64,000 nt of DNA, taken from Lentilitoribacter sp. Alg239-R112 (GTDB lineage Bacteria > Pseudomonadota > Alphaproteobacteria > Rhizobiales > Rhizobiaceae). The translations under genes were made by a program, and so were the position numbers. The first letter of the stretch is position 1, and each line of letters opens with the position of its first letter. Of this stretch, positions 4,771-22,728 are shown in pieces. The notes under the pieces were generated by a model. That model searched no databases and was not told the DNA's origin. It worked only from the letters and a program-made list of their open reading frames with translations. The stretch is from NCBI RefSeq assembly GCF_900537175.1, contig NZ_LS999833.1, positions 2,584,261-2,648,260 on the forward strand, in the 5' to 3' direction.

Positions 4771-4918
4771 ATTGCCAAAAAAGATAGATTATCCGGCATA
4801 TTGTCAAGTTCTATCTGAACCTAACTCTCGCGATATTGAGAACACCAAGATTAGGAGATTACAAATTTTGAATTCGCCATGCCACTACAACCGATCCTAT
4901 TGCGTCAGATACGTTGTG

Positions 4919-4926
4919 CTAATTAG
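4919..4926. promoter_or_regulatory. Candidate Lrp-type operator centred on CTAATTAG
   Basis: A perfect palindrome CTAATTAG is flanked by TTGT on the left and ACAA on the right (one base asymmetric), about 30 bp before the oxidase start. AT-rich palindromes of this shape are typical Lrp sites, and it lies in the Lrp/oxidase divergent promoter region. Confidence 0.35.
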
Positions 4927-4955
4927 ACAATCTCTATCAGGGTGGTCAGTATAAA

Positions 4956-6209
4956 TTGACAGTTGAAAAGGTTGCAATCATTGGCTCGGGCATTGTCGGA
5001 ATTTGTGCGGCGATAGAACTGTCAAAGACCGGCCACGACGTTACACTTTTTGATAAATCCGAACCCGGGATGGAAACATCCCAGTGGAACGCTGGTGTCC
5101 TGGCGACTTCGTCACTATACCCGCTCAATAATCCGCAGATTTTCGGCAATATCCCACGCCTACTCATGGGCAAAACCCCCGGATTTCATTATAATTTGTC
5201 GTCATCTTTTCAGACACTGAACTGGGGTTTGAAATTCTTAAACAACGCTCGCCCCTCGCAGTTCGAACCGATAGTAGAAGCACTTCACAACATAATTTCT
5301 CTCTCGCGAAATGGCCATGATGAATATCTCAAAGAAATGGGAAAATCTGACTTACTGAAGCGCGATGGCTGGTTGATGCTTTATGAAAATGAATCAGCGT
5401 ATCGAGCCGGCTCAAACCGACGACATGTTTTTGACAAGTATGATGTCGAATATGAGGTTCTTTCACCTTCTGAATTATCGGAATTGGAGCCTGCTCTTAA
5501 GAAGACATTTTATCGCTCCGTACATATAAAAGATAGCGCGTCAGCGGACCCTCGTACCATTGTCAAAACCTACATTGAGCACGCAAAAAAACTCGGTGCC
5601 CACTTTAAAAAACACAAAGTTTTAGGCATTTCACCCAGTACAAATGCGAATGGCGTTCAAATACACGCTCACAGCGGTGAAACAACTCACTTTGATAAAG
5701 TAGTAGTTTCAGCGGGTGCTTGGTCAAATAAACTTCTTAAAGATTGCGGTATTCAACTGCCTATGATCGTCGAACGCGGATATATTCAAAGGTTTAAGCT
5801 GGATGAAAACAAGCAGATTAATCGCCCTATTTGCGATATCAGCGGTGGTCTCGTTCTATCGCCGCGTTCGGGTTCAGTTCAAATCTCAACGGGTACTGAT
5901 CTTACAACGCTCAACCAGAGGGCAAATAGAAAACCGATGACAGATGCAATTAATCGCGTAAGAAGTATATTAGATTTGGGGGAGCCAGATATGCCTACAC
6001 CGGCTGTGGGCAACAGACCTTCCCTACCTGATGGATTGCCTGTAATCGGAGCACTTAAAAATCTACCAAACGTCTGGCTAGCTTGTGGACATCAACATAT
6101 CGGATTTAATACATCCACTGGAACTGCAAAACTATTATCATCCCTCATAAACGATTCAGAAAGCCCTATAGACCCCACACCATTTTCTCCTGCAAGATTT
6201 CGCTTATAA
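4956..6209 (+). CDS. DadA-like FAD-dependent D-amino-acid dehydrogenase/oxidase
   Basis: A 417-residue flavoprotein. The N-terminal dinucleotide-binding motif VAIIGSGIVGICAAIELS and the later KVVVSAGAWSNKLL are the FAD-binding signatures of the DAO/DadA family; the C-terminal WLACGHQHIGFNTSTGTAKL is the second FAD/substrate-loop motif. The family deaminates D-amino acids, or oxidises sarcosine- or hydroxyproline-like imino acids, to keto acids and delivers electrons to the respiratory chain. The start is TTG at 4956 with GGTGG about 10 nt upstream; no earlier good start exists. It is followed by a TRAP operon that probably imports the substrate. The exact substrate is unknown. Confidence 0.85.
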   Translation: MTVEKVAIIGSGIVGICAAIELSKTGHDVTLFDKSEPGMETSQWNAGVLATSSLYPLNNPQIFGNIPRLLMGKTPGFHYNLSSSFQTLNWGLKFLNNARPSQFEPIVEALHNIISLSRNGHDEYLKEMGKSDLLKRDGWLMLYENESAYRAGSNRRHVFDKYDVEYEVLSPSELSELEPALKKTFYRSVHIKDSASADPRTIVKTYIEHAKKLGAHFKKHKVLGISPSTNANGVQIHAHSGETTHFDKVVVSAGAWSNKLLKDCGIQLPMIVERGYIQRFKLDENKQINRPICDISGGLVLSPRSGSVQISTGTDLTTLNQRANRKPMTDAINRVRSILDLGEPDMPTPAVGNRPSLPDGLPVIGALKNLPNVWLACGHQHIGFNTSTGTAKLLSSLINDSESPIDPTPFSPARFRL

Positions 6210-6397
6210 TTTGAAACTCAATATGTTTAGGTAGCTTGCAAGGATATTACGACCATGAATTATATTAAATCGACGAAATTAACCGGCATAATAGCGGATA
6301 TACTTCCATAACCGACATTATGAGGGGCTGTATTCGAATTCGCCGGATTTAACGATGTATAAAAATTACACAAATAAACTAGTGGAAGGAACTATAA

Positions 6398-7378
6398 ATG
6401 ACTAAAATCAAAACACTTATGTGCGGTGTCGCATTCATAGCGGGAGTGGCTGCAACTAATGCACACGCAGACGAAAAATGGGATATGGCACTGGCATATT
6501 CAGCAACCAATTTCCATTCTGAAATCGCCGCAGAATTTGCTGCAGAAGTAACAGAAAAGTCTGGCGGTAAGTTAAGCATTGTTACGCACCCGGGTGGTTC
6601 ACTTTTCGGCGGCTCTGAAATATTCGGCGCTGTTCGCAAAGGTCTTGCCCCCATCGGCGAACGCCTAATCTCAGCACTTGGCAATGACAACGCAATTTAT
6701 GAAGTTGATTCCGTGCCATTCCTGGCCACTGGATTTGAAGGTGCAAAGAAGCTTTATAAAGCATCAAAGCCCGCTCTTAAGGAGGCATTGGAAGAAGCCC
6801 GTCTTCACTTCCTTTATTCATGCCCATGGCCACCGCAAGGATTTTACACCATTAAAGAAGCTAACTCACTTGATGATGTTAAAGGCCTAAAATTCCGCGC
6901 CTACAATGCAACAACTTCAAAAATGGCGGAAGGCCTTGGCATGTTGCCGACAAAAATTGAAGCTGCGGAGTTGAGCCAAGCATTTGCTACTGGTGTCGCT
7001 CAATCTATGATTTCTTCTGGCTCAACTGGCTATGACCGTAAGCTTTGGGAACATGTCAGCCATTACTACGATGTAAAAGCATGGTTGCCCCGCAACATGG
7101 TGATCGTAAATGGCAAGGCATGGGCTGGTCTTGATGATGCTACAAAAGGCGTGATCGAAGCAGCAGCAGCAACAGCGGAAGAAAATTGCTGGGCGAAATC
7201 TGCAGAATTGGATCAATGGTATATTGAGCAATTTACAACAAATGGCATGACTGTTGGCAATCTCAATCCAGCCATGCAAGCTGAGTTTGAAAAAGTTGGT
7301 GCTGAATTGAAAGAGGCATGGCTAGAGCGCGCTGGTGACAAAGGTAAAGCTGTCATCGAAGCATTTAACAATATGTGA
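6398..7378 (+). CDS. dctP: TRAP transporter substrate-binding protein (DctP family)
   Basis: A 326-residue periplasmic protein with a Sec signal peptide (residues 1-24, cleavage after AHA). The DctP fold shows in GGSLFGGSEIF, GLKFRAYNATTSKM (the arginine that binds the substrate carboxylate) and NMVIVNGKAWAGLD. It feeds a small acid, probably the amino or keto acid handled by the upstream oxidase, to the DctQM permease. RBS GGAAGGA precedes ATG 6398. It is followed by a hairpin that separates it from dctQ. Confidence 0.92.
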   Translation: MTKIKTLMCGVAFIAGVAATNAHADEKWDMALAYSATNFHSEIAAEFAAEVTEKSGGKLSIVTHPGGSLFGGSEIFGAVRKGLAPIGERLISALGNDNAIYEVDSVPFLATGFEGAKKLYKASKPALKEALEEARLHFLYSCPWPPQGFYTIKEANSLDDVKGLKFRAYNATTSKMAEGLGMLPTKIEAAELSQAFATGVAQSMISSGSTGYDRKLWEHVSHYYDVKAWLPRNMVIVNGKAWAGLDDATKGVIEAAAATAEENCWAKSAELDQWYIEQFTTNGMTVGNLNPAMQAEFEKVGAELKEAWLERAGDKGKAVIEAFNNM

Positions 7379-7391
7379 TCAACACAATCTT

Positions 7392-7419
7392 AGAGGCGGG
7401 TGAAATATCATCCGCCTCT
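7392..7419 (+). terminator. Attenuator-type hairpin between dctP and dctQ
   Basis: AGAGGCGG (7392-7399) pairs perfectly with CCGCCTCT (7412-7419), followed by a T-rich run. It lies 14 bp after the dctP stop and before the dctQ ribosome-binding site, so it probably stabilises dctP mRNA or partly terminates, giving excess binding protein. Confidence 0.6.
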
Positions 7420-7438
7420 TTCTCTTGGGGAGGAGAAA

Positions 7439-7969
7439 ATGCTTCGTAAATTATCCGATTTTTTGGATCTGATATACAAGATTGAAGCTTGGGGGTCAGG
7501 ATTACTTCTGGTGCTGCTGTGCTCACTTGTTATTTATAGCATCCTGTCCCGCTTATTCGGCTTCTTCGCAGGCGGCGCGACAGATGTTGCCGGTTATGTG
7601 ATGGCCACAAGTAGTTTTATGGCTCTAGCCTACACATTCAGAACTCAAGGACACATTCGTGTTGCTCTCCTCATTCAAAATTTTATAGGTGAGACGAGGC
7701 GTAAAATAGAGATCCTGTGCCTATCAATCATGTCTTTGGTCTCTTTGTTCATTGCCTATTATATGGTCCGTCTAGCCTATGACAGCTACGATTTCGGTGA
7801 GCGGAGCGAAGGCGCCGACGCTATTTTACTTTGGATACCTCAAACACCTGTAGCAATTGGCGCGGGTCTTCTCGCACTCGCCGTTGTGCATACTTTGTGT
7901 CAGGCACTTTTTGACTATGACGAAGTTAATCCTGAAACAAACAAGCATGAGGGACCTAACGAGGTATGA
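7439..7969 (+). CDS. dctQ: TRAP transporter small permease (DctQ family)
   Basis: About 176 residues from ATG 7439, which follows a strong GGGGAGGAG; a GTG in the same frame at 7400 lies inside the upstream hairpin and is unlikely. Four membrane segments are visible (starting around LLLVLLCSLVIYSILSRLF, VMATSSFMALAYTF, ILCLSIMSLVSLFIAYYM and VAIGAGLLALAVVHTL). DctQ supports the large subunit. Its stop overlaps the dctM start (ATGA). Confidence 0.9.
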   Translation: MLRKLSDFLDLIYKIEAWGSGLLLVLLCSLVIYSILSRLFGFFAGGATDVAGYVMATSSFMALAYTFRTQGHIRVALLIQNFIGETRRKIEILCLSIMSLVSLFIAYYMVRLAYDSYDFGERSEGADAILLWIPQTPVAIGAGLLALAVVHTLCQALFDYDEVNPETNKHEGPNEV

Positions 7970-9267
7970 CCGAGACACTTTCAGTTATCATCTTCCTATC
8001 GACGTTATTCATCCTCCTTGGAATCGGCGTTTGGGTTGGAGCCGCACTTTTAACCACTGCAATAGTTGGGATGTTTCTTTTTACATCTGCTCCAATAGGC
8101 GATTCTATGGCGGTGACAATCTGGGGTGAACAATCTTCGTGGACGCTCACCGCTTTACCGCTTTTCATTTGGATGGGGGAAATATTATTTCGCACCAAAC
8201 TAAGCGAAACACTCTTTAAAGGTTTAGCACCCTTCTTACGCAAATTGCCTGGCGGATTATTACACGTAAACGTTGGTGCATCAGCTGTTTTTGCGGCGAT
8301 CTCTGGTTCATCAGCTGCAACGGTGGCAACGGTTGGCAAAATGTCGATCCCGGAACTACGCGCGCGCGACTATCCAGAAAAGATGATTATCGGAACATTA
8401 TCCGGAGCTGGTACTCTAGGACTTTTGATCCCACCTTCCATTTCTATGATCATTTTCGGTGTAACTGTAAATGAAAGCATATCAAAACTTTTCATGGCAG
8501 CGATGCTACCTGGTTTAGGTTTGGCGATCTTCTTCATGATCTACATTATGGGATGGTCGTTCCTTAATCGTGGAACATTTAAACCGAAAATTGACATCAT
8601 AGATACGGAAACACTTGCCAAACGCATTGGCGACTTATTGCCGGTTCTTATATTAATCGGTGGCGTTATCGGTTCGATATATTCAGGAATTGCGACAGCA
8701 ACCGAAGCTGCAGCGCTCGGTGTTGTTGGTGCCATTCTCCTATCGATGATTCAACGTAGTTTCACAATCGATGGACTTTTAGAAAGTATCATGGGCTCTG
8801 TTCGAACAACCGCCATGATCATGCTCATATTGATGGGCGCCGGTTTTTTATCCCTTGCAATGGGCTTTACAGGAATCCCCCGCGCACTAGCTGAGACTAT
8901 CGGCGCATGGGAATTATCTCCGCTTATGCTCATTCTTATCCTGACCATATTCTATATAATTCTCGGGTGTTTCTTGGATGGTCTATCGTCAATCGTTTTA
9001 ACGATGGCTGTCATCGAACCATTAGTTCGCGCTGCTGGTTTTGATATGCTTTGGTTCGGCGTATATTTGATGATCGTCGTTGAGATGGCACAAATCACAC
9101 CGCCTATTGGCTTCAACCTCTTTGTGCTTCAAGGAATGACGGGTAAAGATATGGCCTTCATATCCAAAGCATCATTCCCGATGTTTCTGGTCATGTGTGT
9201 CTTCATTGTTTTCCTTGTTTTGTTCCCGCAGATGGCAACCTGGTTGCCAGAAGTCTTGAGCAAATAG
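7966..9267 (+). CDS. dctM: TRAP transporter large permease (DctM family)
   Basis: A 433-residue, very hydrophobic protein with about 12 membrane segments, full length for DctM. The conserved elements GSSAATVATVGKMSIPEL and LGLLIPPSISMIIFG near the first half, and the repeated ITPPIGFNLFVLQGM near the C-terminus, are family hallmarks. It is the sodium-coupled translocation subunit. ATG overlaps the dctQ stop, indicating translational coupling. Confidence 0.95.
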   Translation: MTETLSVIIFLSTLFILLGIGVWVGAALLTTAIVGMFLFTSAPIGDSMAVTIWGEQSSWTLTALPLFIWMGEILFRTKLSETLFKGLAPFLRKLPGGLLHVNVGASAVFAAISGSSAATVATVGKMSIPELRARDYPEKMIIGTLSGAGTLGLLIPPSISMIIFGVTVNESISKLFMAAMLPGLGLAIFFMIYIMGWSFLNRGTFKPKIDIIDTETLAKRIGDLLPVLILIGGVIGSIYSGIATATEAAALGVVGAILLSMIQRSFTIDGLLESIMGSVRTTAMIMLILMGAGFLSLAMGFTGIPRALAETIGAWELSPLMLILILTIFYIILGCFLDGLSSIVLTMAVIEPLVRAAGFDMLWFGVYLMIVVEMAQITPPIGFNLFVLQGMTGKDMAFISKASFPMFLVMCVFIVFLVLFPQMATWLPEVLSK

Positions 9268-9284
9268 TCTTGAAAGGTCACTTT

Positions 9285-9710
9285 ATGAGTACAGAAAGAC
9301 GCCTATTAGCTATGATTGATATAGCCCACCGCAATAATGCGCTCTTACTGTGCAGGGAGGCAAAGTCACAATGCAATGAAGGGGATGAGCTGCATATTGC
9401 CTATGTTATGCCATACGGTTATTTCAGCTATATAGAGCCATTTGTGCCGGAAGAAAACATAAAAGCTGCAGCAAAGCGAGCACATGAAGAACTAAATAGC
9501 ATCATAAAAGATGCTGATATTGGCTCGGTCAAAGATCATGTGCTACGTGGTGGTGTAGGAGAACAAGCACTCCTTTTAGCGGAAAAAATTGACGCATCAT
9601 TGATGATTGTAAATGCCCATCGGCCAGACGTTGAAAAACATAGTTTAGGTTCATATGCCACGCAAATTATTCGCCATGCGCCATGTTCTGTTTTGGTTGT
9701 CAGAAACTAA
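9285..9710 (+). CDS. Universal stress protein (UspA family), TRAP-associated
   Basis: A 141-residue UspA-fold protein starting at ATG 9285 (AAAGG upstream, 17 bp after dctM). N-terminal LLAMIDIA and C-terminal SLGSYATQIIRHAPCSVLVVRN match the family; the ATP loop is recognisable but imperfect (NAHRP in place of a G-rich loop). UspA proteins encoded after TRAP operons, such as TeaD in Halomonas, modulate transporter activity; a similar role is inferred from position. Confidence 0.85.
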   Translation: MSTERRLLAMIDIAHRNNALLLCREAKSQCNEGDELHIAYVMPYGYFSYIEPFVPEENIKAAAKRAHEELNSIIKDADIGSVKDHVLRGGVGEQALLLAEKIDASLMIVNAHRPDVEKHSLGSYATQIIRHAPCSVLVVRN

Positions 9711-9878: not shown

Positions 9879-10751
9879 ATGTCAAAACCATGCATCATCT
9901 GCGTAGCAATCACAGGGTCACTTCCAACAAAGGCGAACAATCCTGTGGTCCCCATCTGTGTGGAAGAACAGATTGAGAGCACCCATGAAGCATTCGAAGC
10001 TGGTGCAACCATCGTTCATTGCCATGTTAGAAACGATGATCAAACACCCAGCTCCGATCCAGATAAATTCAGCAGACTTCTTGATGGACTACGAAAACAC
10101 ACACCGGAAATGATTGTTCAATTCTCAACCGGTGGGCGCTCTGGTTCAGGTACACAACGTGGGGCATGCCTATCATTACGCCCAGACATGGCCTCACTAT
10201 CAGTCGGATCATGCAACTTTCCAACACGCGTATATGAGAATTCACCAGATCTTGTGGACTGGCTCGCCAGCGAGATGCGAAGATATGAAATTACACCTGA
10301 GATTGAGGCGTTTGATCTCAGCCATATTCATCAAGCTATTGAGATGCACCGCGACGGTCGTTTACCAGCAAAATTATATCTGCAGTTCGTCATGGGTGTT
10401 AAGAATGCAACACCGGTTGATGAGGATATCTTCGCTTACTACGTTCAGACAATGAAACGTTTAGCACCAGAAGCGGAATGGTGCGCCGCAGGGATTGGTC
10501 GCGGGCAACTGATCGTAAATGAGTGGGCAGTTCGTGATGGAGGTCACACGCGAACTGGTCTTGAAGATAATGTTCGACTGAGTAAAGATCGGCTTGCCCC
10601 TTCAAATGCAGCGCTCGTTGAAAGGGTCGTAGAACTTTGTGAAAAACACGAACGCCCAGTTGCAACGACCAATGAAGCAAAAATGATGTTAGGTCTAAAA
10701 TTACAACAAGCAAAAACGAAATCTAATAGAGCCGTAAGAAAGAAGCGGTAA
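9879..10751 (+). CDS. Beta-keto acid cleavage enzyme (BKACE, DUF849); proposed 3-oxoadipate:acetyl-CoA cleavage
   Basis: A 290-residue TIM-barrel zinc enzyme. The metal histidines are H47 and H49 in VHCHVRND; STGGRSG and AAGIGRGQ are family motifs. BKACEs react a beta-keto acid with acetyl-CoA to give an acyl-CoA and acetoacetate. The founding member Kce (lysine fermentation) binds a substrate amino group with Glu14; here that position is Leu15 in AITGSLPTK, so the substrate probably lacks that amino group. With the other enzymes of this cluster the best candidate is 3-oxoadipate, giving succinyl-CoA and acetoacetate (inference); 3-oxoglutarate is an alternative. Confidence 0.88.
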   Translation: MSKPCIICVAITGSLPTKANNPVVPICVEEQIESTHEAFEAGATIVHCHVRNDDQTPSSDPDKFSRLLDGLRKHTPEMIVQFSTGGRSGSGTQRGACLSLRPDMASLSVGSCNFPTRVYENSPDLVDWLASEMRRYEITPEIEAFDLSHIHQAIEMHRDGRLPAKLYLQFVMGVKNATPVDEDIFAYYVQTMKRLAPEAEWCAAGIGRGQLIVNEWAVRDGGHTRTGLEDNVRLSKDRLAPSNAALVERVVELCEKHERPVATTNEAKMMLGLKLQQAKTKSNRAVRKKR

Positions 10752-10810
10752 CAAACGAAATAAATGGAACAATCCTGAGACGATAATAAGTTTGGAACAT
10801 CGGAGAGAAC

Positions 10811-11869
10811 ATGAAAAAAGTAATAGTCCTTGGGCTAGGCAAAGTTGGCACACTTGCGGCGGAGCTGCTGCATGGAGCCGAGTTCGACGTTACTGGAATT
10901 GATATTAATCCATCAAAAACCAAACTACCATTTACGACGAAGGTAATTGATCTCAGATCAGCCGATGATGTAGCGGTAGAGTTTGAGGAAAATGATGCAG
11001 TTCTTTCTTGTTTGCCATTCCATTTAAATGCGCGCCTAGCCAAGTTAGCTTATAAAGCTGGCATCCACTATTTTGATCTAACCGAGGATGTCCCAACAAC
11101 AAAATCTATCATCGAATTAGCCAGAACCTCTAAAGGCTTGATGGCACCACAATGTGGATTGGCGCCAGGTTTTATTGGCATTGCAGGAGCCAGTTTAATC
11201 GCAGAGCTAGACGAATGCCGCAGCTGTAAAATGCGTGTGGGTGCTCTACCCCAACACCCAACTGGCTTGATGGGATATTCATTCAATTGGTCGCCCGAAG
11301 GTGTGGTGAATGAATATCTCAATGATTGCGAAGTTCTTGAAGATGGAGAGATTAAATGGGTCTCCGCGATGGAATGGCTGGAGGATATCTATATCGACGG
11401 AATCAAATTGGAAGCCTTCACAACCTCTGGCGGCCTTGGCACTATGTGCGAAACCTATCTGGGATCAGTCGCCAATATTGACTATAAAACGATGCGTTAT
11501 CCTGGGCATGCCGCACTTATGAATTTTTTCTTTCACGAACTCCTAATGCGTGAACGTCGCAAGGAAGCCGGTGAGATATTGGTGAACGCCAAACCGCCCG
11601 TTAACGAAGACGTGGTCTATGTTCATGTCTCGGCCGAAGGAACTATTGATGGCAGGTTGCAACGTAAAGAATTTGTACGTGCATATCGACCGATTGAAAT
11701 CGGAGGAAAAATGCGTACAGCAATTGCTTGGACAACCGCAGGTTCTGTTGTTGCTATCATGGAGATGGTGCGGGCCGGAACCTTACCTAACAGCGGTTTT
11801 TTAAAGCAGGAAGATATCCCTCTCGTCGATTTCCTGGCCACAAAAACGGGCGCTTTTTATGCTGAATAG
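10811..11869 (+). CDS. Lysine 6-dehydrogenase-like (saccharopine dehydrogenase family) oxidoreductase
   Basis: A 352-residue protein with an N-terminal Rossmann motif VLGLGKVGTLAA (residues 5-16) and the saccharopine/lysine-dehydrogenase C-terminal domain. CGLAPGFIGIAGASL, LEAFTTSGGLGTM and YKTMRYPGHA resemble bacterial L-lysine 6-dehydrogenase by eye. That enzyme oxidatively deaminates lysine at C6 with NAD(P) to allysine, which cyclises to piperideine-6-carboxylate. The ALDH7 encoded five genes on is the natural next step. RBS GGAGAG precedes ATG 10811. A 3,5-diaminohexanoate dehydrogenase is a less likely alternative, because no 5,6-aminomutase is present. Confidence 0.8.
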   Translation: MKKVIVLGLGKVGTLAAELLHGAEFDVTGIDINPSKTKLPFTTKVIDLRSADDVAVEFEENDAVLSCLPFHLNARLAKLAYKAGIHYFDLTEDVPTTKSIIELARTSKGLMAPQCGLAPGFIGIAGASLIAELDECRSCKMRVGALPQHPTGLMGYSFNWSPEGVVNEYLNDCEVLEDGEIKWVSAMEWLEDIYIDGIKLEAFTTSGGLGTMCETYLGSVANIDYKTMRYPGHAALMNFFFHELLMRERRKEAGEILVNAKPPVNEDVVYVHVSAEGTIDGRLQRKEFVRAYRPIEIGGKMRTAIAWTTAGSVVAIMEMVRAGTLPNSGFLKQEDIPLVDFLATKTGAFYAE

Positions 11870-11911
11870 GCTGCGTGCGATTATCTGGTCTGGCGCTAGA
11901 CCTCAACAAAA

Positions 11912-12823
11912 TTAAAGCACACGTTCACCAACGGAATTTTTCATCCAGTCACACAATAGATCAACGTCTTCATTCCGTCGATTGCTAGGCGTCACCATGT
12001 AGTAGCTGTTTTTGGTTGTAACCGTAGGTTCGCCTAATTGAACCAGAAGCCCTGCACCTAGTTCTCGCTCGATAAGATAGGTCGGCACTAACGCAGCGCC
12101 AAGCGAAGCAACTGCGCCGGCAATAATCATCGAGAATTGGTCAAAATATTTGCCCGACAAAATAATGTTATCTTCAATGCCATTCTGTTGAAAAAACTGT
12201 TGCCACACGACAGGTCGTGTTTCCATGTGAAGTAACGGAACATCTGCCAATTTGTTGAGATCACAAATTTTATACTGTTTCTTAAACTCTGGCGAGGAGA
12301 CCGCAATCATAGTTTCTGTACACAACTCTCTCATATCAGTATCTGGCCAATCATCGGTCCCAAAGTGGATAGCCAGATCAAAATGTTCGCGATCCAAGTC
12401 AAACGGCTTGATCCGTGTCGAAAGATTGAGCTCAATATGGGGATGTTGTGCGGAAAATTCAGGCAATCTGGGGATAAGCCAACGACTTGCAAATCCTGGC
12501 AAAACAGCCATGCTAATGGCCGTCCCTTGACGCCCTGCCGAGACAGCACGCATGATGGTTTGGTGTATATTTTCAAGATCAACTGCCAGTTCTTCTGCAA
12601 GTGTACGACCTGCTTTGGTCAATAGAACTCGTCTACCAGAACGTCTAAAAAGCGCGGTCCCCACATTATCTTCAAGCTCTTTAACTTGCCGGCTAATAGC
12701 GCTCTGCGTGAGGTGAAGTTCCTCGGCAGCAAGTGTGAAACTTTGATGCCGCGCAGCACACTCGAAACTACGCAATACAGAATGTGATGGCAGATATCTG
12801 CGCTGGATATTTTGTTTGTGCAT
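11912..12823 (-). CDS. LysR-family (GcvA-like) transcriptional regulator
   Basis: From ATG 12823 this gives 303 residues, the usual LysR length; the frame continues upstream but adds a non-homologous 98-residue stretch, so 12823 is preferred. The N-terminal wHTH (LRSFECAARHQSFTLAAEEL, then TQSAISRQVKELE) is followed by a GcvA-type effector domain. It is divergent from the KamA-like gene and inserted between the two halves of the pathway cluster, so it most likely activates them, with lysine or a pathway intermediate as effector (inference). Confidence 0.9.
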   Translation of the reverse strand: MHKQNIQRRYLPSHSVLRSFECAARHQSFTLAAEELHLTQSAISRQVKELEDNVGTALFRRSGRRVLLTKAGRTLAEELAVDLENIHQTIMRAVSAGRQGTAISMAVLPGFASRWLIPRLPEFSAQHPHIELNLSTRIKPFDLDREHFDLAIHFGTDDWPDTDMRELCTETMIAVSSPEFKKQYKICDLNKLADVPLLHMETRPVVWQQFFQQNGIEDNIILSGKYFDQFSMIIAGAVASLGAALVPTYLIERELGAGLLVQLGEPTVTTKNSYYMVTPSNRRNEDVDLLCDWMKNSVGERVL

Positions 12824-13065
12824 AATATTACCTATGAATCCAGCTCCATAAATTAGCCAGTGAGATGAAAAACATACATGAATAATCGATGACAGCAAAG
12901 CCAGTATTTTTGCATAAGCATGAAAACAACTCATCAATCGGTGACGAACAAGCGTTTGTTTATTGCCGAATACTAACATTACATTGCCTGCAAATTCACG
13001 ACTGGCGAGGCAGAACATCACCGCGATGTTCCCGTTAAATGATGCAGACCATCTGGAGGTGCTCA

Positions 13066-14499
13066 ATGGCAATGGAAAAATACATCCCATCGGATAAGGA
13101 AAACACATTTTTGGCAACGGTGCAAAATGGGAGGTATGATCGCCAGATTATCAATGGGCTTAAAAAGTTCATTGAGGGGTCTGCTCCACAAGATATGAAA
13201 GATTTTTATTCCAAGGAGGAGCTTGATGCAATTGTTGCACTAGATGGTTCTGATCGTGATCTACAAAAACGCATGCCAATCAAGATCACACGGCATTATT
13301 TCCAGCAAGCTGTGCGATCAAAGTCACTACAGACGCTGGTTAAAGCCAGCCCAAAAGAAACATATGACCTTGATGGTGCAGAGGACCCGGGCAAACAAAT
13401 GTCTTATAGCCCAATAGAAGGCATGATCCACAAATATGAACTTGCCTTGCTCTATGTGGCTGCAACATGTTCTGCCCATTGTCGTTTTTGTTATCGTGAA
13501 GAACTGATCGCGAAAAAAGACGTTGAACGTCCAGACGGTACGATCGCGCCCAAAGGTTTGGCACAAATCAAGGACGTCGTTGATTACATTTTAGAACATA
13601 ACCGCATTGTTTCAGAAAACGGTGGCACACATCCAGAAACAGGGCGTGAAAAACTTCGGGAAGTTCTAATGTCCGGCGGCGACCCTATGGTTTTAGGTAA
13701 CAAAAACATTGCCCAATGGCTTTGCGCATTGGCGCAGGCAGGTGTTGAAAATATCCGCATCGGCACCAAGGAACTAGCCTTTTTTCCCGAACGTTTTGAT
13801 GAGCATTTCTTCGCCATGTTGGATGCATTTCATAAAGCTTATCCACAAATCAGCCTCCGCATGATGGTGCATTTCAACCACCCAGACGAATTTCTGCAAA
13901 AAAATCCTGACGGAACTTATATCGACAATCCAAATGGTGGACTGGAATGGATTCATGAAACACTATCAGCGGTAAAACAGCTTCGAAGTCGCTCATGGAT
14001 CAACGTCGACAATCAATCCCCGATCATTGCTGACATAAATGACAATGCTGATGCTTTACGCATTTTGCAACGAGAGCTGAAACGCAACGGCATTGAAAAT
14101 CACTACTTTTTCTGTGGGCGAGATATTGTCGGTCACAAAGCATTTAATGTACCAATTGAAACCGCATGGAAAATTTTAAATGAATCCCAACGTGGACTTT
14201 CTGGCGTTGAAGCTCATGCTCGCTTATCGATTACACACTACAAAGGTAAAACAGAAGTTGCGGCCATCACAGATACGCCCGTCCCTGGTGTAAAGGGAGG
14301 AGAAAACGGCGTTGTCGTCTTCAAACTTTTACGTGGTGCAGCAGATGCATCCAATCGCGCGAAGGTAACCATCGTTGGCCGAAATCCTGATGCAATCTGG
14401 TTCAATGGATATGATGATCGCGTCGTCGTGGACGAGGCTGAGTTATTCTCCATGTACGGCATCAAACCTATTAGCACTCAACTCGAAGCCGCCGAATAG
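13066..14499 (+). CDS. KamA-family radical SAM amino acid 2,3-aminomutase; proposed 2-aminoadipate 2,3-aminomutase
   Basis: 477 residues from ATG 13066 (GGAGG at 13055-13059). The radical SAM cysteines are C135, C139 and C142 in TCSAHCRFCYRE; the PLP-binding lysine is probably K395 in HYKGKTEVAA. Lysine 2,3-aminomutase binds the substrate side-chain amine with two aspartates (D293, D330 in Clostridium subterminale). Aligning on the F-x-x-P and SG landmarks, these become R352 and S388 (or I389). Glutamate 2,3-aminomutase likewise replaces them (Lys and Asn). An arginine there suggests a distal carboxylate, as in 2-aminoadipate or glutamate. ALDH7 and LysDH next door favour 2-aminoadipate. The protein is about 60 residues longer than typical KamA. 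Confidence 0.85.
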   Translation: MAMEKYIPSDKENTFLATVQNGRYDRQIINGLKKFIEGSAPQDMKDFYSKEELDAIVALDGSDRDLQKRMPIKITRHYFQQAVRSKSLQTLVKASPKETYDLDGAEDPGKQMSYSPIEGMIHKYELALLYVAATCSAHCRFCYREELIAKKDVERPDGTIAPKGLAQIKDVVDYILEHNRIVSENGGTHPETGREKLREVLMSGGDPMVLGNKNIAQWLCALAQAGVENIRIGTKELAFFPERFDEHFFAMLDAFHKAYPQISLRMMVHFNHPDEFLQKNPDGTYIDNPNGGLEWIHETLSAVKQLRSRSWINVDNQSPIIADINDNADALRILQRELKRNGIENHYFFCGRDIVGHKAFNVPIETAWKILNESQRGLSGVEAHARLSITHYKGKTEVAAITDTPVPGVKGGENGVVVFKLLRGAADASNRAKVTIVGRNPDAIWFNGYDDRVVVDEAELFSMYGIKPISTQLEAAE

Positions 14500-14561
14500 A
14501 GGGCAAATAAAATCATAATACATGACTAAATTTACCACTCGTAATTATCAAAGGAGCCGAA

Positions 14562-14906
14562 ATGACCTATGTCGTCACCGATAATTGCATCAACTGCAAA
14601 CATACTGATTGTGTATCTGTTTGCCCTGTCGATTGCTTCTATGAAGGTCCGAATTTCTTAGCGATTCATCCCGATGAGTGTATTGATTGCGATGCTTGTG
14701 TCGAAGCCTGTCCTATTGATGCCATCTATAATGAAGACGACTTGCCGGAAGAGAAAAAACACTTTCTGGACATCAACGAGCAACTCGCATCGATTTGGCC
14801 GCAAATTACGGATCAAAAAGAACCGATGGCTGATGCAGAAAAATGGAATAATGTCGAAGGCAAACTCGAGCATCTTATCAAGAGCGCGGCAGACGAGAAA
14901 TGTTGA
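14562..14906 (+). CDS. FdxA-type ferredoxin, probable reductant of the aminomutase
   Basis: A 114-residue ferredoxin with two cluster motifs: [14 protein letters not shown] (seven-iron FdxA pattern, extended spacing) and [12 protein letters not shown] (4Fe-4S), then an acidic C-terminal tail. Radical SAM enzymes need a one-electron donor to reduce their 4Fe-4S cluster, and a dedicated ferredoxin directly after the aminomutase gene fits that need. RBS AAAGGAG precedes the ATG. The stop overlaps the aminotransferase start by 7 nt. Confidence 0.93.
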
Positions 14907-16216
14907 AAACCATGTCACCTAGCGAACAAATCTACGAAAGAGCAAAACGCGTAATGCCAGGCGGTTGCTCTCGTAACACAATATTGCGTAAGCCACATCC
15001 TGTTTACGTCAAACATGCCAAAGGTTGCATTGTGACGGACATAGAAGGCAAGGAGCGCATTGATTTCGCCAATAATGTTGCATCTTTGATTCACGGCCAT
15101 GCACATCCGGCAATCATAAATGCTGTCGGTGAGCAGCTACAAAGGGGCACCGCTTACACAGTTGGCACCGAGATTGAAGTTTCCTACGCAGAACAAATGG
15201 TAAAGCGTTGCGCTAGTTTTGAGAAAATTCGCTTTGTAAACTCCGGTACCGAAGCTGTTATGAGTTGCATAAAAGCAGCACGCGCTTATACCAACAAACC
15301 AAAAATTGCGAAGGTCGAAGGCTCTTATCATGGTCTTTATGACTATGCCGAAGTAAGCCAGACGGCCAAACCAAATAATTGGGGTGACATTGAACACCCC
15401 GCACGCGTTCCCGTCTCGCAGGGTACACCTCAAGGTGCACTGGATGATGTCGTCATCATTCCATTTAACGACACAGTACACGCCATCAAAATTCTCGACG
15501 AACATAAAGACTCCATTGCTGCAGTTCTTCTCGATCTTCTACCACATCGCATTGGTGTTATACCTGCCGATCCGAGTTTCGTGAAGGCTTTGCGCAATTG
15601 GGCTACAGAGAACCAAGCGCTTCTAATATTTGATGAAGTCATCACATTTCGGACTAATTATGACGGAGCGCAGGGGTCTTATGATGTAAAGCCTGATCTG
15701 ACAGCAATGGGAAAGATGATAGGTGGTGGCTTTCCAGTCGGTGCCTTGTCTGGCCGCGCAGACATCATGGACGTTATGAACCCATTGAACGGCCCTGCAC
15801 GTTTTCCACATTATGGCACATTTAGTGCCAACCCTATCACCATGACGGCAGGCAAAACAGCAATGGAATGGTTCAACCAACAGGCGGTGATACGATTAAA
15901 TAAACTCTCCGATCTTGCACGATCTGCGATTGAGGAAAGCATAAAAATCTCGGGTGTTTCCGCATGTGTAACAGGCGCTGGCTCTATGTTTAGAATCCAT
16001 TTTAAGGAGCTGGCTCCGACAAACTATCGTTCAGCTTTCATAAATTCGGATGAGCAACGATATCTGGCAACATTCCTAGATCATGTATTTGATGAGGGAT
16101 TGTTGATGATTGAAACGGGTTCCGGGCTGCTATCTACTGCTATGACCTCTGCTGAAATTGATCAGATGGCAGATATAATGCTCAGTGGGTTTCGAAAGGT
16201 AAAAGCTCTTCAATAA
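14900..16216 (+). CDS. Class III PLP aminotransferase of the beta-amino acid transaminase type; proposed 3-aminoadipate transaminase
   Basis: A 438-residue fold-type I enzyme of the glutamate-1-semialdehyde-aminomutase group. The PLP lysine is K272 in [13 protein letters not shown], with D245 in IFDEVITFR and the phosphate motif NSGTEAV (114-120). Length and motifs ([10 protein letters not shown] at the N-terminus, [12 protein letters not shown]) resemble beta-phenylalanine/beta-amino acid aminotransferases of Variovorax and Mesorhizobium. In this cluster it would move the 3-amino group of 3-aminoadipate to a keto-acid acceptor, giving 3-oxoadipate (inference). ATG 14900 overlaps the ferredoxin stop; ATG 14912 is an alternative start. 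Confidence 0.85.
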
Positions 16217-16337
16217 ACGTAACAGGACTGAGCAGGTAGTAAAACATTCTCATTCCGATTTTTCATCGAACTATGACCAAATTTCGTTATACTCACAAGG
16301 CGTGTTGTGCGAAGTTAATGGTAAATCAAAGAAAGCA

Positions 16338-17846
16338 ATGAACATGTCTTTTAGCGAAATTCTTACTGCCAACGGCTTTACAAGCGATGAACTAAGCGGC
16401 GGCACACTTACCGTTACAACACCTGTAGATGGCTCTGTAATTGCCAGTGTTAAATCTCACAACATCACGGAAGCCCGGACTGTTATTGCCAAAGCCGCTG
16501 AAGCGTTTAAAGAATGGCGAAAAGTGCCAGGGCCACGCCGTGGTGAGTTGGTGCGTCTGCTCGGCGAAGAACTTCGTGCGGAGAAAGAAAATCTCGGCCG
16601 CCTTGTTACGCTCGAATGTGGCAAAATCTATCAAGAAGGTCTTGGTGAAGTTCAAGAGATGATAGATATTTGTGATTTTGCTGTTGGCCTATCACGTCAG
16701 CTATACGGCTTAACGATTGCGTCCGAACGCCCGGGTCATTCCATGCGCGAAACATGGCACCCATTGGGAGTTTGCGGCATCATCACAGCATTTAATTTCC
16801 CTTGCGCACCTTGGTGCTGGAATGCTGCCCTTGCTCTTGTTTGCGGCGATCCCGTCATTGCCAAACCATCTGAAAAAACACCGCTTGTTCAACTTGCCGT
16901 TCAAAAGATATGTGACCGCGCCCTAGCCAAGTTTGGTTCTGATGCCCCAGAAGGGCTGATACAAACTCTGATCGGAGAACGCGAAATTGGCGAATTGCTA
17001 ACCGCCTCTCAAGATGTTGCAATAGTTTCCGCCACAGGTTCTGTACCAATGGGTAAAGCCGTTGCTTCTGACATGTCCAAACGCCTTGGAAAAACCATTC
17101 TAGAATTAGGTGGCAACAATGCAATGATCGTTGCGTCCTCTGCTGATCTTGAAATGGCACTCCGCGCGATTGTCTTCTCCGCGGTTGGCACAACGGGACA
17201 ACGCTGCACCTCGCTCCGCCGCTTGATTGTACACGAAGATATCTATGATGATTTATTACCGCGTTTGATTAAATCCTACCAAACTTTGCCCATCGGCGAC
17301 CCTCTTGACGATGAAACTTTAGTTGGTCCAATTATCGACACGAATGCTATGAAAGCTATGGATGCTGCGCTTGAGAGCGCAAAGACCGAGGGCGGTGTAG
17401 TTCATGGCGGCGGACAAGTATTGTCCGAAACCTATCCAAATGCAGCTTATGTTGCTCCTGCGATTGTCGAAATGCCAGCACAATCTGATATCATGCATCG
17501 CGAGACGTTTGCTCCTATTTTGTATGCAGTAAAGTATTCCGACCTTGACCAAGCCATTGATTTACAAAATGCAGTCCCGCAAGGCCTATCATCGTGTATA
17601 TTTTCAACAGATGTTCGCGAAACTGAACTCTTTTTGTCAGCAGTCGGGTCTGACTGCGGCATTGCAAATGTAAATATTGGCCCTTCCGGCGCTGAAATTG
17701 GCGGCGCTTTTGGCGGCGAAAAAGAAACCGGTGGTGGTCGCGAAAGTGGTTCGGATGCGTGGAAAGCCTATATGCGCCGACAAACCAATACCATCAATTA
17801 CTCACGTGAGCTACCGCTTGCACAAGGCATAAAGTTCGATATTTAA
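16338..17846 (+). CDS. ALDH7-family 2-aminoadipate semialdehyde (piperideine-6-carboxylate) dehydrogenase
   Basis: About 502 residues from ATG 16338 (ATG 16344 equally possible; a GTG at 16302 is upstream). Catalytic C290 lies in GTTGQRCTSLRRL, the general base E256 in LELGGNN, and N153 in FNFP. The C-terminus SGAEIGGAFGGEKETGGGRE and YSRELPLAQGIKF are diagnostic of antiquitin/ALDH7A1 and bacterial AmaB/Pcd, which oxidise allysine to 2-aminoadipate with NAD(P). This is the direct follow-up to lysine 6-dehydrogenase and supplies the proposed aminomutase substrate. It lies 121 bp after the aminotransferase and is probably in the same operon. Confidence 0.92.
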   Translation: MNMSFSEILTANGFTSDELSGGTLTVTTPVDGSVIASVKSHNITEARTVIAKAAEAFKEWRKVPGPRRGELVRLLGEELRAEKENLGRLVTLECGKIYQEGLGEVQEMIDICDFAVGLSRQLYGLTIASERPGHSMRETWHPLGVCGIITAFNFPCAPWCWNAALALVCGDPVIAKPSEKTPLVQLAVQKICDRALAKFGSDAPEGLIQTLIGEREIGELLTASQDVAIVSATGSVPMGKAVASDMSKRLGKTILELGGNNAMIVASSADLEMALRAIVFSAVGTTGQRCTSLRRLIVHEDIYDDLLPRLIKSYQTLPIGDPLDDETLVGPIIDTNAMKAMDAALESAKTEGGVVHGGGQVLSETYPNAAYVAPAIVEMPAQSDIMHRETFAPILYAVKYSDLDQAIDLQNAVPQGLSSCIFSTDVRETELFLSAVGSDCGIANVNIGPSGAEIGGAFGGEKETGGGRESGSDAWKAYMRRQTNTINYSRELPLAQGIKFDI

Positions 17847-19316: not shown

Positions 19317-20858
19317 ATGACTATGAAGAACTGGATGAAATCTATGCTGGCGGCAGGAGCCTTAATGGCACTGACGGTTGGAGCGAACGCCGACGGCATT
19401 CTCAGATATGCAACTGTGGGCGAGCCGCCTAGTCTGGATCAACAGGTTATCACTTCTGATTTAGCAACAACAATTGCACACCACATTTTTGAAGGTCTTT
19501 ATACCTTCAATGGTTCCAACGCGCCGGTACCACTTCTAGCTTCAGGAGAAACCGTTTCTGATGATGGTAAGACAATTGTTATTTCACTTCGAGAAGGAGT
19601 TAAGTTTCACAATGGTCAGGATATGACCTCAGCAGATGTTCTTGCATCGCTACAGCGTTGGGGTGAGTTTGGTTCTCGCGGTAGTCTAATCTTTGATCAT
19701 GTTGAAAATGTTGCCGCAACTGGTGACCATGAAATCACACTTAAACTTAAAGAACCATTCGGCCCTTGGAAAAACCTGATGGCCTTCATCAATGGCGGCC
19801 CGGCAATATATCCTGCTAGCATCATAACGGGCGCTACAAAGGAGCCGATCAAACCTGAAAATTATATCGGAACAGGTCCTTACACTTTTAATGCCTGGAA
19901 CGCGAACCGTTACATTGAGCTAAAACGTTTTGATGATTACGCGTCCCCATCGGGTAAAGCTGATGGTTATGGCGGCACTCGTATCGCCGAATTCGACACA
20001 TTGCGTTTTATTCCGGTCCCGGATGTCGGAACCCGTGTTGCTGGTGTTCGTGCAGGTGACTATGATTATGCTGAAAGTATCCCCGGTGATCTTTTCGCAG
20101 ACTTAGATGCTGATCCTGGTGTTAAAACCATGTTAAATGGTGGACCGATCTTCGGTCTTGTTTTCATGAACTCCAGCGATGGGCCTTTGAAGGAAAACTT
20201 TGCACTCCGTCGCGCCATTCAAACAGCGCTTGATAAAACACCGGCACTACAAGTAGCTATCGGTCCTGAAGGCTTATGGCGTGCAAATGGATCCTTCGCA
20301 CCAGAAGGTAATGTTTGGTATACAGATTCAGGAGCAGAACATTTTAGCAAAGGAAATGCAGATGCTGCCCGCACAATGGCTGCGGATGCTGGATATGACG
20401 GAGAGCCGATTAAATTCATGGTTTCGACCAACTATCCATTCCACTACGACAGTGCGATCATCTACACAAAGCAGTTAGCTCAAGCCGGATTTAATGTCGA
20501 TCTTCAGGTTTATGACTGGGCGACATTAATTGAAAAGCGTGCACAGCCTGACCAATGGGATATGTTCTTTACTCATCATGGTTTTGTTCCTGATCCGATT
20601 TTGATTTCGGTCATGAATGACAATTATCCTGGTTGGTGGGCAACTCCCGAGAAGCAAGCTCTGAAAGATCGGTTTACAGCCTCTTCTGACCCTGCTGAAC
20701 GTCAAAAAATCTGGTCAGAAATCCAGGCGCTCATCTATGATCAAGTTCCAACGATGAAGACTGGCGATGTTTATACCTACAACATTGCTTCGCCTAATCT
20801 AAAAGGCCTTGGCGAACAGACATTGATCTGGCCTAACTTTTGGAATGTCTCTAAGTAG
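19317..20858 (+). CDS. Peptide ABC transporter substrate-binding protein (DppA/OppA family)
   Basis: A 513-residue periplasmic family 5 solute-binding protein. Signal peptide residues 1-25 (cleavage after ANA). Family landmarks include LASGETVSDDGKTIVISLREGVKFHNG and NYIGTGPYTF. RBS GGAGG precedes ATG 19317. It heads a five-gene transporter operon and is followed by a hairpin. The ligand is likely a dipeptide or modified peptide. Confidence 0.93.
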   Translation: MTMKNWMKSMLAAGALMALTVGANADGILRYATVGEPPSLDQQVITSDLATTIAHHIFEGLYTFNGSNAPVPLLASGETVSDDGKTIVISLREGVKFHNGQDMTSADVLASLQRWGEFGSRGSLIFDHVENVAATGDHEITLKLKEPFGPWKNLMAFINGGPAIYPASIITGATKEPIKPENYIGTGPYTFNAWNANRYIELKRFDDYASPSGKADGYGGTRIAEFDTLRFIPVPDVGTRVAGVRAGDYDYAESIPGDLFADLDADPGVKTMLNGGPIFGLVFMNSSDGPLKENFALRRAIQTALDKTPALQVAIGPEGLWRANGSFAPEGNVWYTDSGAEHFSKGNADAARTMAADAGYDGEPIKFMVSTNYPFHYDSAIIYTKQLAQAGFNVDLQVYDWATLIEKRAQPDQWDMFFTHHGFVPDPILISVMNDNYPGWWATPEKQALKDRFTASSDPAERQKIWSEIQALIYDQVPTMKTGDVYTYNIASPNLKGLGEQTLIWPNFWNVSK

Positions 20859-20869
20859 CTTTTCTCCCA

Positions 20870-20898
20870 GCTCCCGCTTTTTGTTACGTGGCGGGAGC
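20870..20898 (+). terminator. Attenuator-type hairpin after the peptide-binding-protein gene
   Basis: GCTCCCGC (20870-20877) pairs with GCGGGAGC (20891-20898), followed by ATCCCTTTTT. It sits 12 bp after the binding-protein stop and before the permease, consistent with differential expression. Confidence 0.65.
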
Positions 20899-20930
20899 AT
20901 CCCTTTTTGCTACCGAACATTGAGGATAAT

Positions 20931-21878
20931 ATGCTCATTTACACAATGAAGCGCCTATTAACGCTCATTCCGACGCTCCTTGCAGCTTCGGTGCTTGTAT
21001 TCCTTTTTGTTCACCTGATCCCCGGTGATCCGGCAGCCATACTTCTTGGTGACAGTGCCACACCGGAAGAAATAGCCCAACTGTCATCGGAGATGGGCTT
21101 TGATCGTCCTTTGTGGGTTCAGTATTTTTATTGGCTCGGCAATATACTCCGAGGTGATTTTGGAACCTCGATTTTCTTTGGCGAACCTGTTTTATCTGTA
21201 ATCGGAAGCGGTGCGGAAACATCCATTTTACTCGCGACCATGACAATGGTTTGGATCATCTTAATTGGCCTTCCGATAGGTGTTCTATCAGCCACAAAGC
21301 ATGGAACCTGGATTGACCAGATTACATCCAGCGGCGCAATGCTTGCTGCATCCATGCCGACCTTCTGGTTGGGTCTGTACCTTATAATGATTTTCTCAGT
21401 TACACTTGGCTGGTTCCCAAGCTCAGGTTTTCCATCACTATCTGACGACGGAGGAATTGCCAATCTGCGATATCTTCTTCTTCCAAGCCTAACACTGGCA
21501 GCACCCAATGCAGCACTTATTGTGCGTCTCGTACGAGCATCTATGCTTGATGTTGCCCGAGAAGATCATGTACGCACAGCACGGGCCAAAGGGCTTCATC
21601 CAGCCCGTGTTGCTATGAAGCACGTATTTCGCAATGCATTGATCGCTGTTGCTGCGGCATTTGGTTTTACATTCGCTGCACTTATATCAGAAGCCGTAGT
21701 CACAGAAACGGTCTTCTCATTACCTGGCATAGGCCGTTTGGTCGTGCAGTCAATTTTACGTCGAGACTATCCGGTTATTCAAGGAGTTATCCTTGTGATT
21801 GTCGTTCTTTATATGGTCATCAATTTACTGGTCGATCTTGCCTATGCACGCCTAGACCCAAGGGTATCTCTAAAATGA
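20931..21878 (+). CDS. Peptide ABC transporter permease (DppB family)
   Basis: From ATG 20931 (GAGG upstream) 315 residues with about six membrane segments, an N-terminal MKRLLTLIPTLLAASVLVFL segment and the EAA loop HVRTARAKGLHPARV that contacts the ATPases. Its stop overlaps the next permease start (ATGA). Confidence 0.93.
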   Translation: MLIYTMKRLLTLIPTLLAASVLVFLFVHLIPGDPAAILLGDSATPEEIAQLSSEMGFDRPLWVQYFYWLGNILRGDFGTSIFFGEPVLSVIGSGAETSILLATMTMVWIILIGLPIGVLSATKHGTWIDQITSSGAMLAASMPTFWLGLYLIMIFSVTLGWFPSSGFPSLSDDGGIANLRYLLLPSLTLAAPNAALIVRLVRASMLDVAREDHVRTARAKGLHPARVAMKHVFRNALIAVAAAFGFTFAALISEAVVTETVFSLPGIGRLVVQSILRRDYPVIQGVILVIVVLYMVINLLVDLAYARLDPRVSLK

Positions 21879-22726: not shown

Positions 22727-22728
22727 CC

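Follow-up and report, generated by a model that had tools for sequence, protein, structure and literature searches.

A candidate lysine catabolic gene cluster joining 2-aminoadipate to 3-oxoadipate in Lentilitoribacter and related loci of diverse bacteria

A stretch of 64,000 nucleotides (nt) from Lentilitoribacter sp. Alg239-R112 (contig NZ_LS999833.1, positions 2,584,261 to 2,648,260; the whole stretch is called the window) contains a cluster of genes built around a KamA-like radical S-adenosylmethionine (SAM) protein. The first gene of the cluster (9879-10751, plus strand) encodes a BKACE protein (PF05853) that matches NF053568 with 473 bits against a cut-off of 350. It is followed after 59 nt by the gene for a lysine dehydrogenase (LysDH)-like protein (10811-11869, plus strand) with Sacchrp_dh domains PF16653 and PF03435, over cut-off, and a LysR-type (GcvA-like) regulator with PF03466 and PF00126 is encoded on the minus strand (11912-12799) between the LysDH and KamA genes. 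The KamA-like radical SAM and pyridoxal phosphate (PLP) protein is encoded at 13066-14499 on the plus strand, in an open reading frame (ORF) that is open from 13039, and reaches 108 bits against the 199 required by TIGR00238. The gene for an FdxA-type ferredoxin (14562-14906, plus strand; NF045490, 160 bits, cut-off 135) begins 62 nt further on and overlaps by 7 nt the gene for a class-III aminotransferase (14900-16216, plus strand; Aminotran_3, PF00202). After a gap of 121 nt the cluster ends with an ALDH7 protein, the L-piperidine-6-carboxylate (P6C) dehydrogenase (P6CDH) (16338-17846, plus strand, ORF open from 16302; NF050084, 799 bits, cut-off 730). An initial annotation of this DNA had assembled the six plus-strand genes into a lysine catabolic pathway; all six ORFs are open on that strand, and the functions it gave to BKACE and ALDH7 are supported by scores above the NCBIfam equivalog cut-offs.

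It is very likely, judging from the sequences, that the cluster encodes the catabolism of lysine by way of 2-aminoadipate, 3-aminoadipate and 3-oxoadipate. LysDH would oxidize lysine at C6 to allysine/P6C, which ALDH7 would convert to L-2-aminoadipate. The KamA-like enzyme, reduced by the ferredoxin, would then move the amino group from C2 to C3 to give 3-aminoadipate, and the class-III transaminase would remove this amino group to give 3-oxoadipate. In the last step BKACE would transfer the acetyl unit of 3-oxoadipate to acetyl-CoA, yielding succinyl-CoA and acetoacetate. This final step would fall in many homologous loci to 3-oxoadipate CoA-transferase (PcaIJ), often with a thiolase (PcaF), making BKACE a non-homologous replacement. 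The balance would be lysine, acetyl-CoA and 2-oxoglutarate, with two NAD(P)-linked oxidations, giving succinyl-CoA, acetoacetate, glutamate and ammonia, and the carbon count (C6 + C2 = C4 + C4) would involve no decarboxylation. The BKACE, P6CDH and Pca steps and the linkage of the genes are supported by family models and gene context; the substrates of the aminomutase and the transaminase, and lysine as the physiological input, are inferred.

One scan of GTDB genome contigs returned 397 relatives of the KamA-like protein, and the closest 80 (65-86% identity) were kept; all counts out of 80 below refer to these close relatives, whose loci carry L numbers. By record title, the 80 come from Alpha- and Gammaproteobacteria, Planctomycetota, Bacteroidota, Acidimicrobiales and a Chloroflexi metagenome-assembled genome (MAG), and loci from named strains include Zongyanglinia, Mesorhizobium, Hoeflea, Cucumibacter and Sneathiella. 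The KamA-like protein (477 amino acids, aa) had no Pfam match at E 1e-3, and its scores against the aminomutase equivalog models were 88 bits for glutamate 2,3-aminomutase (TIGR04368, cut-off 650), 87 for arginine aminomutase (cut-off 600) and 85 for lysine 2,3-aminomutase (LAM; TIGR03820, cut-off 525.4). It belongs to a separate radical SAM subfamily, and its scores fall well short of all three of these cut-offs. Its sole PDB sequence match was the LAM structure 2a5h, and this structure was also the top Foldseek match (E 6.3e-15, TM-score 0.53-0.61) of an AlphaFold2 model built from a 29-row alignment (mean pLDDT 83). The CxxxCxxC motif and the LAM fold, both expected of a member of the radical SAM aminomutase (KamA) superfamily, are present. 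No further LAM or glutamate 2,3-aminomutase was found in the window's genome, where the window's KamA gene is the sole match.

The active site also bears on the substrate. In an alignment of 77 sequences (the window protein and 76 of the 80, the other four, outside 440-520 aa, being left out), C135-x3-C139-x2-C142, R352, S388 and K395 are invariant. K395 is the candidate PLP lysine and was aligned by hand with the GGGGK lysine, as the hhalign profile alignment ends before this residue. In that profile alignment R352 falls on an Asp of the LAM-like protein of locus L003, which we take to correspond to D293 of 2a5h, the residue that binds the side-chain amine of lysine in LAM. An Asp occupies this position in 15 of 18 other KamA proteins read from the 40 control loci described below (one has Leu and two were unreadable). 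The Asp expected of a lysine 2,3-aminomutase is therefore absent from the window protein, with R352 in its place, and an acidic substrate is expected because an invariant Arg replaces the lysine-binding Asp. A second active-site Asp of LAM, which we take to be D330 of 2a5h and the equivalent of D331 in B. subtilis and D339 in P. gingivalis, has no Asp counterpart in a hand alignment, where the region reads S388-I389-T390-H391. This second Asp affects specificity: mutation of D331 in the B. subtilis LAM, or of D339 in that of P. gingivalis, conferred alanine aminomutase activity (PMC9850924). The KamA-like protein, whose subfamily includes a member labelled hypothetical in one RefSeq record, would be a 2-aminoadipate 2,3-aminomutase catalyzing a new reaction. 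A distant relative of ~547 aa in genome G237 (L045, 8203-11175; 39-44% identity) keeps R352 and S388, and its gene adjoins those of an ABC transporter and of an aminotransferase of a different kind; it is perhaps a second uncharacterised aminomutase.

The partner genes point to the same pathway. Clustering of the ORFs beside KamA recovered the same transaminase, two small CoA-transferase subunits and a thiolase. Within 6 kb of KamA in the 80 loci, the aminotransferase occurs 57 times, PcaI 42, PcaJ 39, ferredoxin 26, PcaF 23, P6CDH 13, LysDH 9, a second CoA-transferase pair twice and BKACE once. A 3-oxoadipate module of any kind lies within this distance in 46 of the 80 loci (PcaI/PcaJ in 43, the other CoA-transferase pair in two and BKACE in one), and the best PcaI match was more than 6 kb away in a single locus, the available sequence beyond that distance amounting to 404 kb. 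Where KamA is flanked by 6 kb or more on each side (40 loci), the aminotransferase is present in 31 and a 3-oxoadipate module in 21. The linkage exceeds chance: an aminotransferase or 3-oxoadipate module is found within 1.3 kb in 61 of the 80 subfamily loci versus 0 of 40 other KamA-type loci (Fisher p 1.2e-17), and no partner gene lies within ~1.2 kb in any of these 40. The 40 control loci are L003-L043 without L031, which is a true orthologue; the distant relative L002 was also left out. The pathway argument stands mainly on this local linkage of KamA to 3-oxoadipate modules, and 3-oxoadipate as the end product rests on more than BKACE because the KamA homologues cluster with PcaI, PcaJ and PcaF.

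The most complete arrangement is that of L051, where LysR, KamA, ferredoxin, aminotransferase, PcaI, PcaJ, PcaF, LysDH and P6CDH are encoded in a single locus. Its PcaF exceeds the pcaF equivalog cut-off (674 versus 597) and its PcaI and PcaJ were assigned by family models; L059, L073, L093 and L123 have most of the same gene set. In the Mesorhizobium loci L058 and L065, other CoA-transferase subunits lie 3' of the transaminase (both PF01144 in L058). This pair (L058 3948-5581 and L065 13186-14819), which has no NCBIfam match at E 1e-30, is a candidate for a further kind of 3-oxoadipate CoA-transferase. Mesorhizobium sp. 113-3-3 has a conjugative plasmid with the same order of KamA, FdxA, transaminase and CoA-transferase, in which one CoA-transferase subunit is annotated and KamA is called hypothetical in RefSeq. 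This plasmid-borne cluster (L153; NZ_AP023244.1, 323220-348641) adjoins BREX-1 defence genes.

The window's own terminal enzyme is BKACE, and with 473 bits to NF053568, the 3-oxoadipate:acetyl-CoA acetyltransferase equivalog, and 255 to Kce (cut-off 382), it is, by its family model, the predicted enzyme of the last step, which would convert 3-oxoadipate and acetyl-CoA to succinyl-CoA and acetoacetate. Two papers describe, respectively, the replacement of PcaIJ/PcaF by a BKACE/kce-type enzyme in the protocatechuate pathway of Methylobacterium (PMC12379598) and the use of the BKACE reaction, in which an acetyl group is transferred to acetyl-CoA to give acetoacetate, for another keto acid (PMC6365646). 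Genome-wide searches for P6CDH, BKACE and LysDH were made in 50 of the 80 genomes, picked by hand after 30 short or similar-looking MAG loci were dropped. Equivalog BKACE was found in eight of the 50, plus one partial match below cut-off. Four of the BKACE genomes show no PcaIJ (L046, L047, L048 and L049; the L046 and L047 loci are truncated), three have PcaIJ beside KamA (L051, L052 and L059), and in L070, the only other locus that joins BKACE to KamA, BKACE lies 3' of KamA and the aminotransferase. The surroundings of BKACE were retrieved for seven genomes (relatives of 66-75% identity). Protocatechuate 3,4-dioxygenase subunits lie beside it in L147 and L148 by family models and in L146, L151 and L152 by sequence resemblance, and no pca genes were seen beside BKACE in L149 and L150. 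The order in L148 is pcaD-pcaC-pcaH-pcaG-BKACE-CoA-transferase, with four pca genes over equivalog cut-offs.

A role in the protocatechuate pathway was considered for the window's BKACE and set aside; the enzyme probably does not serve that pathway because the genome has no PcaH match. PcaIJ was likewise rejected for this genome, as its sole CoA-transferase pair stands away from the pathway genes (L131); the one A subunit, which lies there with its B subunit, is 40% identical to PcaI of L051, and this CoA-transferase may serve acetoacetate, for example that derived from BKACE. The best PcaF-like thiolase of the genome (62% identity) adjoins phenylacetate-like genes by sequence resemblance (L132). 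In a KamA tree of 78 rows, the window and L070 represent two independent origins of a BKACE gene next to KamA. For the PcaIJ label, the tree requires no fewer than 13 changes on well-supported branches; this count is inflated because loci cut off at contig ends are among those labelled 'none'. We read these results as a stable pathway front with a swapped terminal module: PcaIJ(F), a second CoA-transferase type, or BKACE. The claim of the initial annotation that BKACE stands in for 3-oxoadipate CoA-transferase and thiolase agrees with the many related loci that have PcaIJ(F) beside KamA.

For the front half of the pathway, the LysDH-like protein gave a weak match (72 bits) to P. horikoshii 3abi, which we take to be a lysine dehydrogenase. 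No informative NCBIfam model matched it; the saccharopine-dehydrogenase fold domains looked for in a lysine 6-dehydrogenase (PF16653 and PF03435) are present. It looks like an enzyme that would convert lysine to allysine/P6C, with oxidation predicted at C6. LysDH relatives (E <= 1e-40) were found in 23 of the 50 KamA genomes, with an identity of at least 67% in ten, and lie within 5 kb of P6CDH in 12 of the 23. P6CDH over cut-off was found in 38 of the 50 KamA genomes versus 29 of 142 in a sample of the window's class (Fisher p 3.5e-12), a comparison in which the class sample includes the window's genome, the KamA genomes span several phyla, and the rows are neither independent nor phylum-matched. 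Either P6CDH or LysDH lies within 6 kb of KamA in 15 of the 80 loci, and both do in seven (L051, L061, L062, L073, L084, L093 and L123).

The best NCBIfam matches of the aminotransferase were the hemL models, at scores below their cut-offs, and its best PDB sequence matches were 6k8h and ForI, with beta-transaminases lower in the list. Its R25 and probable PLP lysine K272 are invariant in 56 rows (55 of the 57 transaminases and the window protein). The class-III fold, the PLP lysine and the Arg of the GGxSR motif, which were looked for as signs of a beta-amino-acid transaminase, are all present; we take this Arg to be a mark of beta-transaminases, and the motif is common to 6k8h and ForI. The protein is proposed, from its sequence and context, to be the 3-aminoadipate transaminase. 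The FdxA-type ferredoxin is the probable electron donor to KamA, and the LysR-type regulator, a homologue of which (E 1e-20) is found in 49 of the 80 KamA loci, probably controls the cluster.

Several observations weigh against this pathway or its generality. No 3-oxoadipate module lies within 6 kb of KamA in 34 of the 80 loci, many of which are ended by contig edges, and nine of the 40 fully flanked loci lack both the aminotransferase and a module (L101, L107, L108 and L109 of Colwellia, and L078, L083, L086, L091 and L122). The PcaI and PcaJ models are family-level and cover acetoacetate CoA-transferases too, and the thiolase of the planctomycete L119 is below the pcaF cut-off. P6CDH over cut-off is missing from 12 of the 50 KamA genomes, among them the three Colwellia MAGs searched, the genome of L047 and Sneathiella chungangensis (L067), even though the last has PcaIJ and the aminotransferase beside KamA. 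No LysDH was found at E 1e-40 in the genomes of L046, L047, L048 and L049, whose KamA proteins are closely related to that of the window. The L070 locus, the other one with BKACE beside KamA, comes from a small MAG (2.1 Mb) that lacks both LysDH and a P6CDH over cut-off. In these cases either other enzymes supply 2-aminoadipate, or the MAGs are incomplete, or the input is different. The AlphaFold model is poor at residues 353-356 beside R352, and the geometry of the arginine is not established by it; the distant KamA relative of G237 may act on another substrate.

The alternative that survives best is compatible with the pathway proposed here. The core may be right while many hosts draw 2-aminoadipate from another source (pipecolate, D-lysine, the saccharopine route or exogenous aminoadipate), with LysDH as one feeder. 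The 12 genomes without P6CDH over cut-off and the 27 of 50 without LysDH at E 1e-40 fit this possibility, as do the DadA-like oxidase and TRAP transporter upstream of the window's cluster. However, LysDH and P6CDH lie together near KamA in seven loci, as they do in the window, and in L062 the series KamA-ferredoxin-aminotransferase-P6CDH-LysDH is followed by the genes of an amino-acid ABC transporter, with a binding protein that comes closest to the Lys/Arg/Orn subfamily, below cut-off (214 versus 256). We consider another input unlikely to be the better account, if a possibility to be kept in view.

A different order of the same steps is improbable. KamA would act first and convert lysine to beta-lysine (3,6-diaminohexanoate), LysDH and ALDH would oxidize C6 to give 3-aminoadipate, and the transaminase would yield 3-oxoadipate; the genes and the carbon count fit this order equally well, and KamA belongs to the lysine 2,3-aminomutase superfamily. 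However, the Asp that binds the lysine amine, kept in most of the other KamA proteins read, is an invariant Arg here, the ALDH is over the L-piperidine-6-carboxylate equivalog cut-off, and P6CDH is also present in 28 of the 141 other class genomes sampled, where no close KamA relative was seen. From the invariant Arg and the linkage to P6CDH, lysine is the less likely substrate of the aminomutase. More improbable still is an aminomutase that makes beta-glutamate, as an osmolyte or a catabolic intermediate that the transaminase would convert to 3-oxoglutarate: the Arg suits an acidic side chain, and glutamate 2,3-aminomutase reportedly has a Lys at this specificity position, but the TIGR04368 score is far below its cut-off and partners such as PcaI/PcaJ, PcaF, a 3-oxoadipate-type BKACE and P6CDH fit no C5 substrate, so that glutamate is an unlikely substrate.

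Directly upstream of the cluster (window 4258-9710) lie genes for an Lrp/LysM-like regulator, the DadA-like amino acid oxidase, the TRAP transporter and a UspA-like protein; L081 is the only locus in which KamA has relatives of all three of DadA, DctP and DctQ nearby (27-44% identity). TRAP, DadA, UspA, RpiR and RidA were rejected as conserved cluster members, being present in just 0 to 4 of the 80 loci. On the 3' side (19317-27047) are genes that we take, by sequence, to encode a peptide-type ABC transporter, an M81-like protein and a D-threonine-aldolase-like protein. In L050, relatives of the window's binding protein (80% identity), permease (82%) and M81-like protein (69%) lie upstream of LysDH-LysR-KamA, in the stretch that runs from about position 164 to the LysDH gene, so that there may be a link between peptide uptake and the pathway. 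Immediately before the start of the window (L133, contig 2569000-2584260) is an island that by sequence resembles branched-chain amino acid degradation, with carboxylase subunits and HMG-CoA-lyase-like, acyl-CoA dehydrogenase and thiolase genes; it would also yield acetoacetate. Elsewhere in the window, an ORF of 819 aa (57708-60167, minus strand) has an N-terminus resembling RTX-type calcium-binding repeats.

Taken together, the cluster very probably gives breakdown of lysine by an unfamiliar route that joins an aromatic-compound pathway, with no carbon lost as CO2. The pathway assembled in the initial annotation agrees with every sequence-based test made, with KamA linked to the aminotransferase in 57 and to a 3-oxoadipate module in 46 of the 80 loci. 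The finding that it named as refuting, homologous clusters that consistently lack LysDH and ALDH7, was not made, but the local linkage of these two genes is a minority pattern. The route had not been recognized as described, and we likewise found no description of a lysine to 3-aminoadipate to 3-oxoadipate route in the open-access literature, subscription papers and preprints being outside the search. It is likely that the loci represent an undescribed carbon-conserving lysine route shared by many Alpha- and Gammaproteobacteria (many of them from marine samples), by MAGs of Planctomycetota and Bacteroidota, by one MAG of the Acidimicrobiales and by rhizobia (in one of which the genes lie on a conjugative plasmid), with a 2-aminoadipate 2,3-aminomutase as the key enzyme, lysine joined to the beta-ketoadipate pathway and the terminal module swapped. 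If so, none of the six carbons of lysine would leave as CO2, and succinyl-CoA, a C4 intermediate of the tricarboxylic acid cycle, would be fed, making lysine partly glucogenic. A function would be gained for a radical SAM subfamily that scores below every NCBIfam aminomutase cut-off, a radical SAM aminomutase would take part in amino acid catabolism in organisms among which are aerobic marine bacteria, and amino acid and aromatic catabolism would meet at one intermediate.

The proposed pathway can be compared with several known systems. The KamA-like protein shares with lysine 2,3-aminomutase (KamA/AblA; 2a5h) its best structural match, the CxxxCxxC motif, the probable PLP lysine and the proposed C2 to C3 amino shift, but differs in its separate subfamily, the invariant Arg in place of Asp, the lack of the second Asp in a hand alignment and the Pca/BKACE partners. 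It resembles glutamate 2,3-aminomutase (TIGR04368) in the diacidic amino acid proposed as its substrate and in the basic residue expected at the specificity position, and is unlike it in score, in its partners and in the proposed C6 substrate. Clostridial lysine fermentation (KamA-KamDE-Kdd-Kce-Kal) also combines a KamA-family enzyme and a BKACE-family cleavage enzyme in one pathway, but its intermediates are different and the window's BKACE is of the 3-oxoadipate family, not Kce. The end steps are the same as those of the beta-ketoadipate (protocatechuate) pathway with PcaIJ-PcaF or BKACE/kce, although here 3-oxoadipate would be derived from an amino acid and not from an aromatic ring. Finally, the first half, from lysine to 2-aminoadipate, is shared with the pathways that lead through LysDH or saccharopine and AASADH to 2-oxoadipate and glutaryl-CoA. 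The 2-oxoadipate/glutaryl-CoA route loses two CO2, whereas the second half of the pathway proposed here would bypass 2-oxoadipate, glutaryl-CoA and both decarboxylations.

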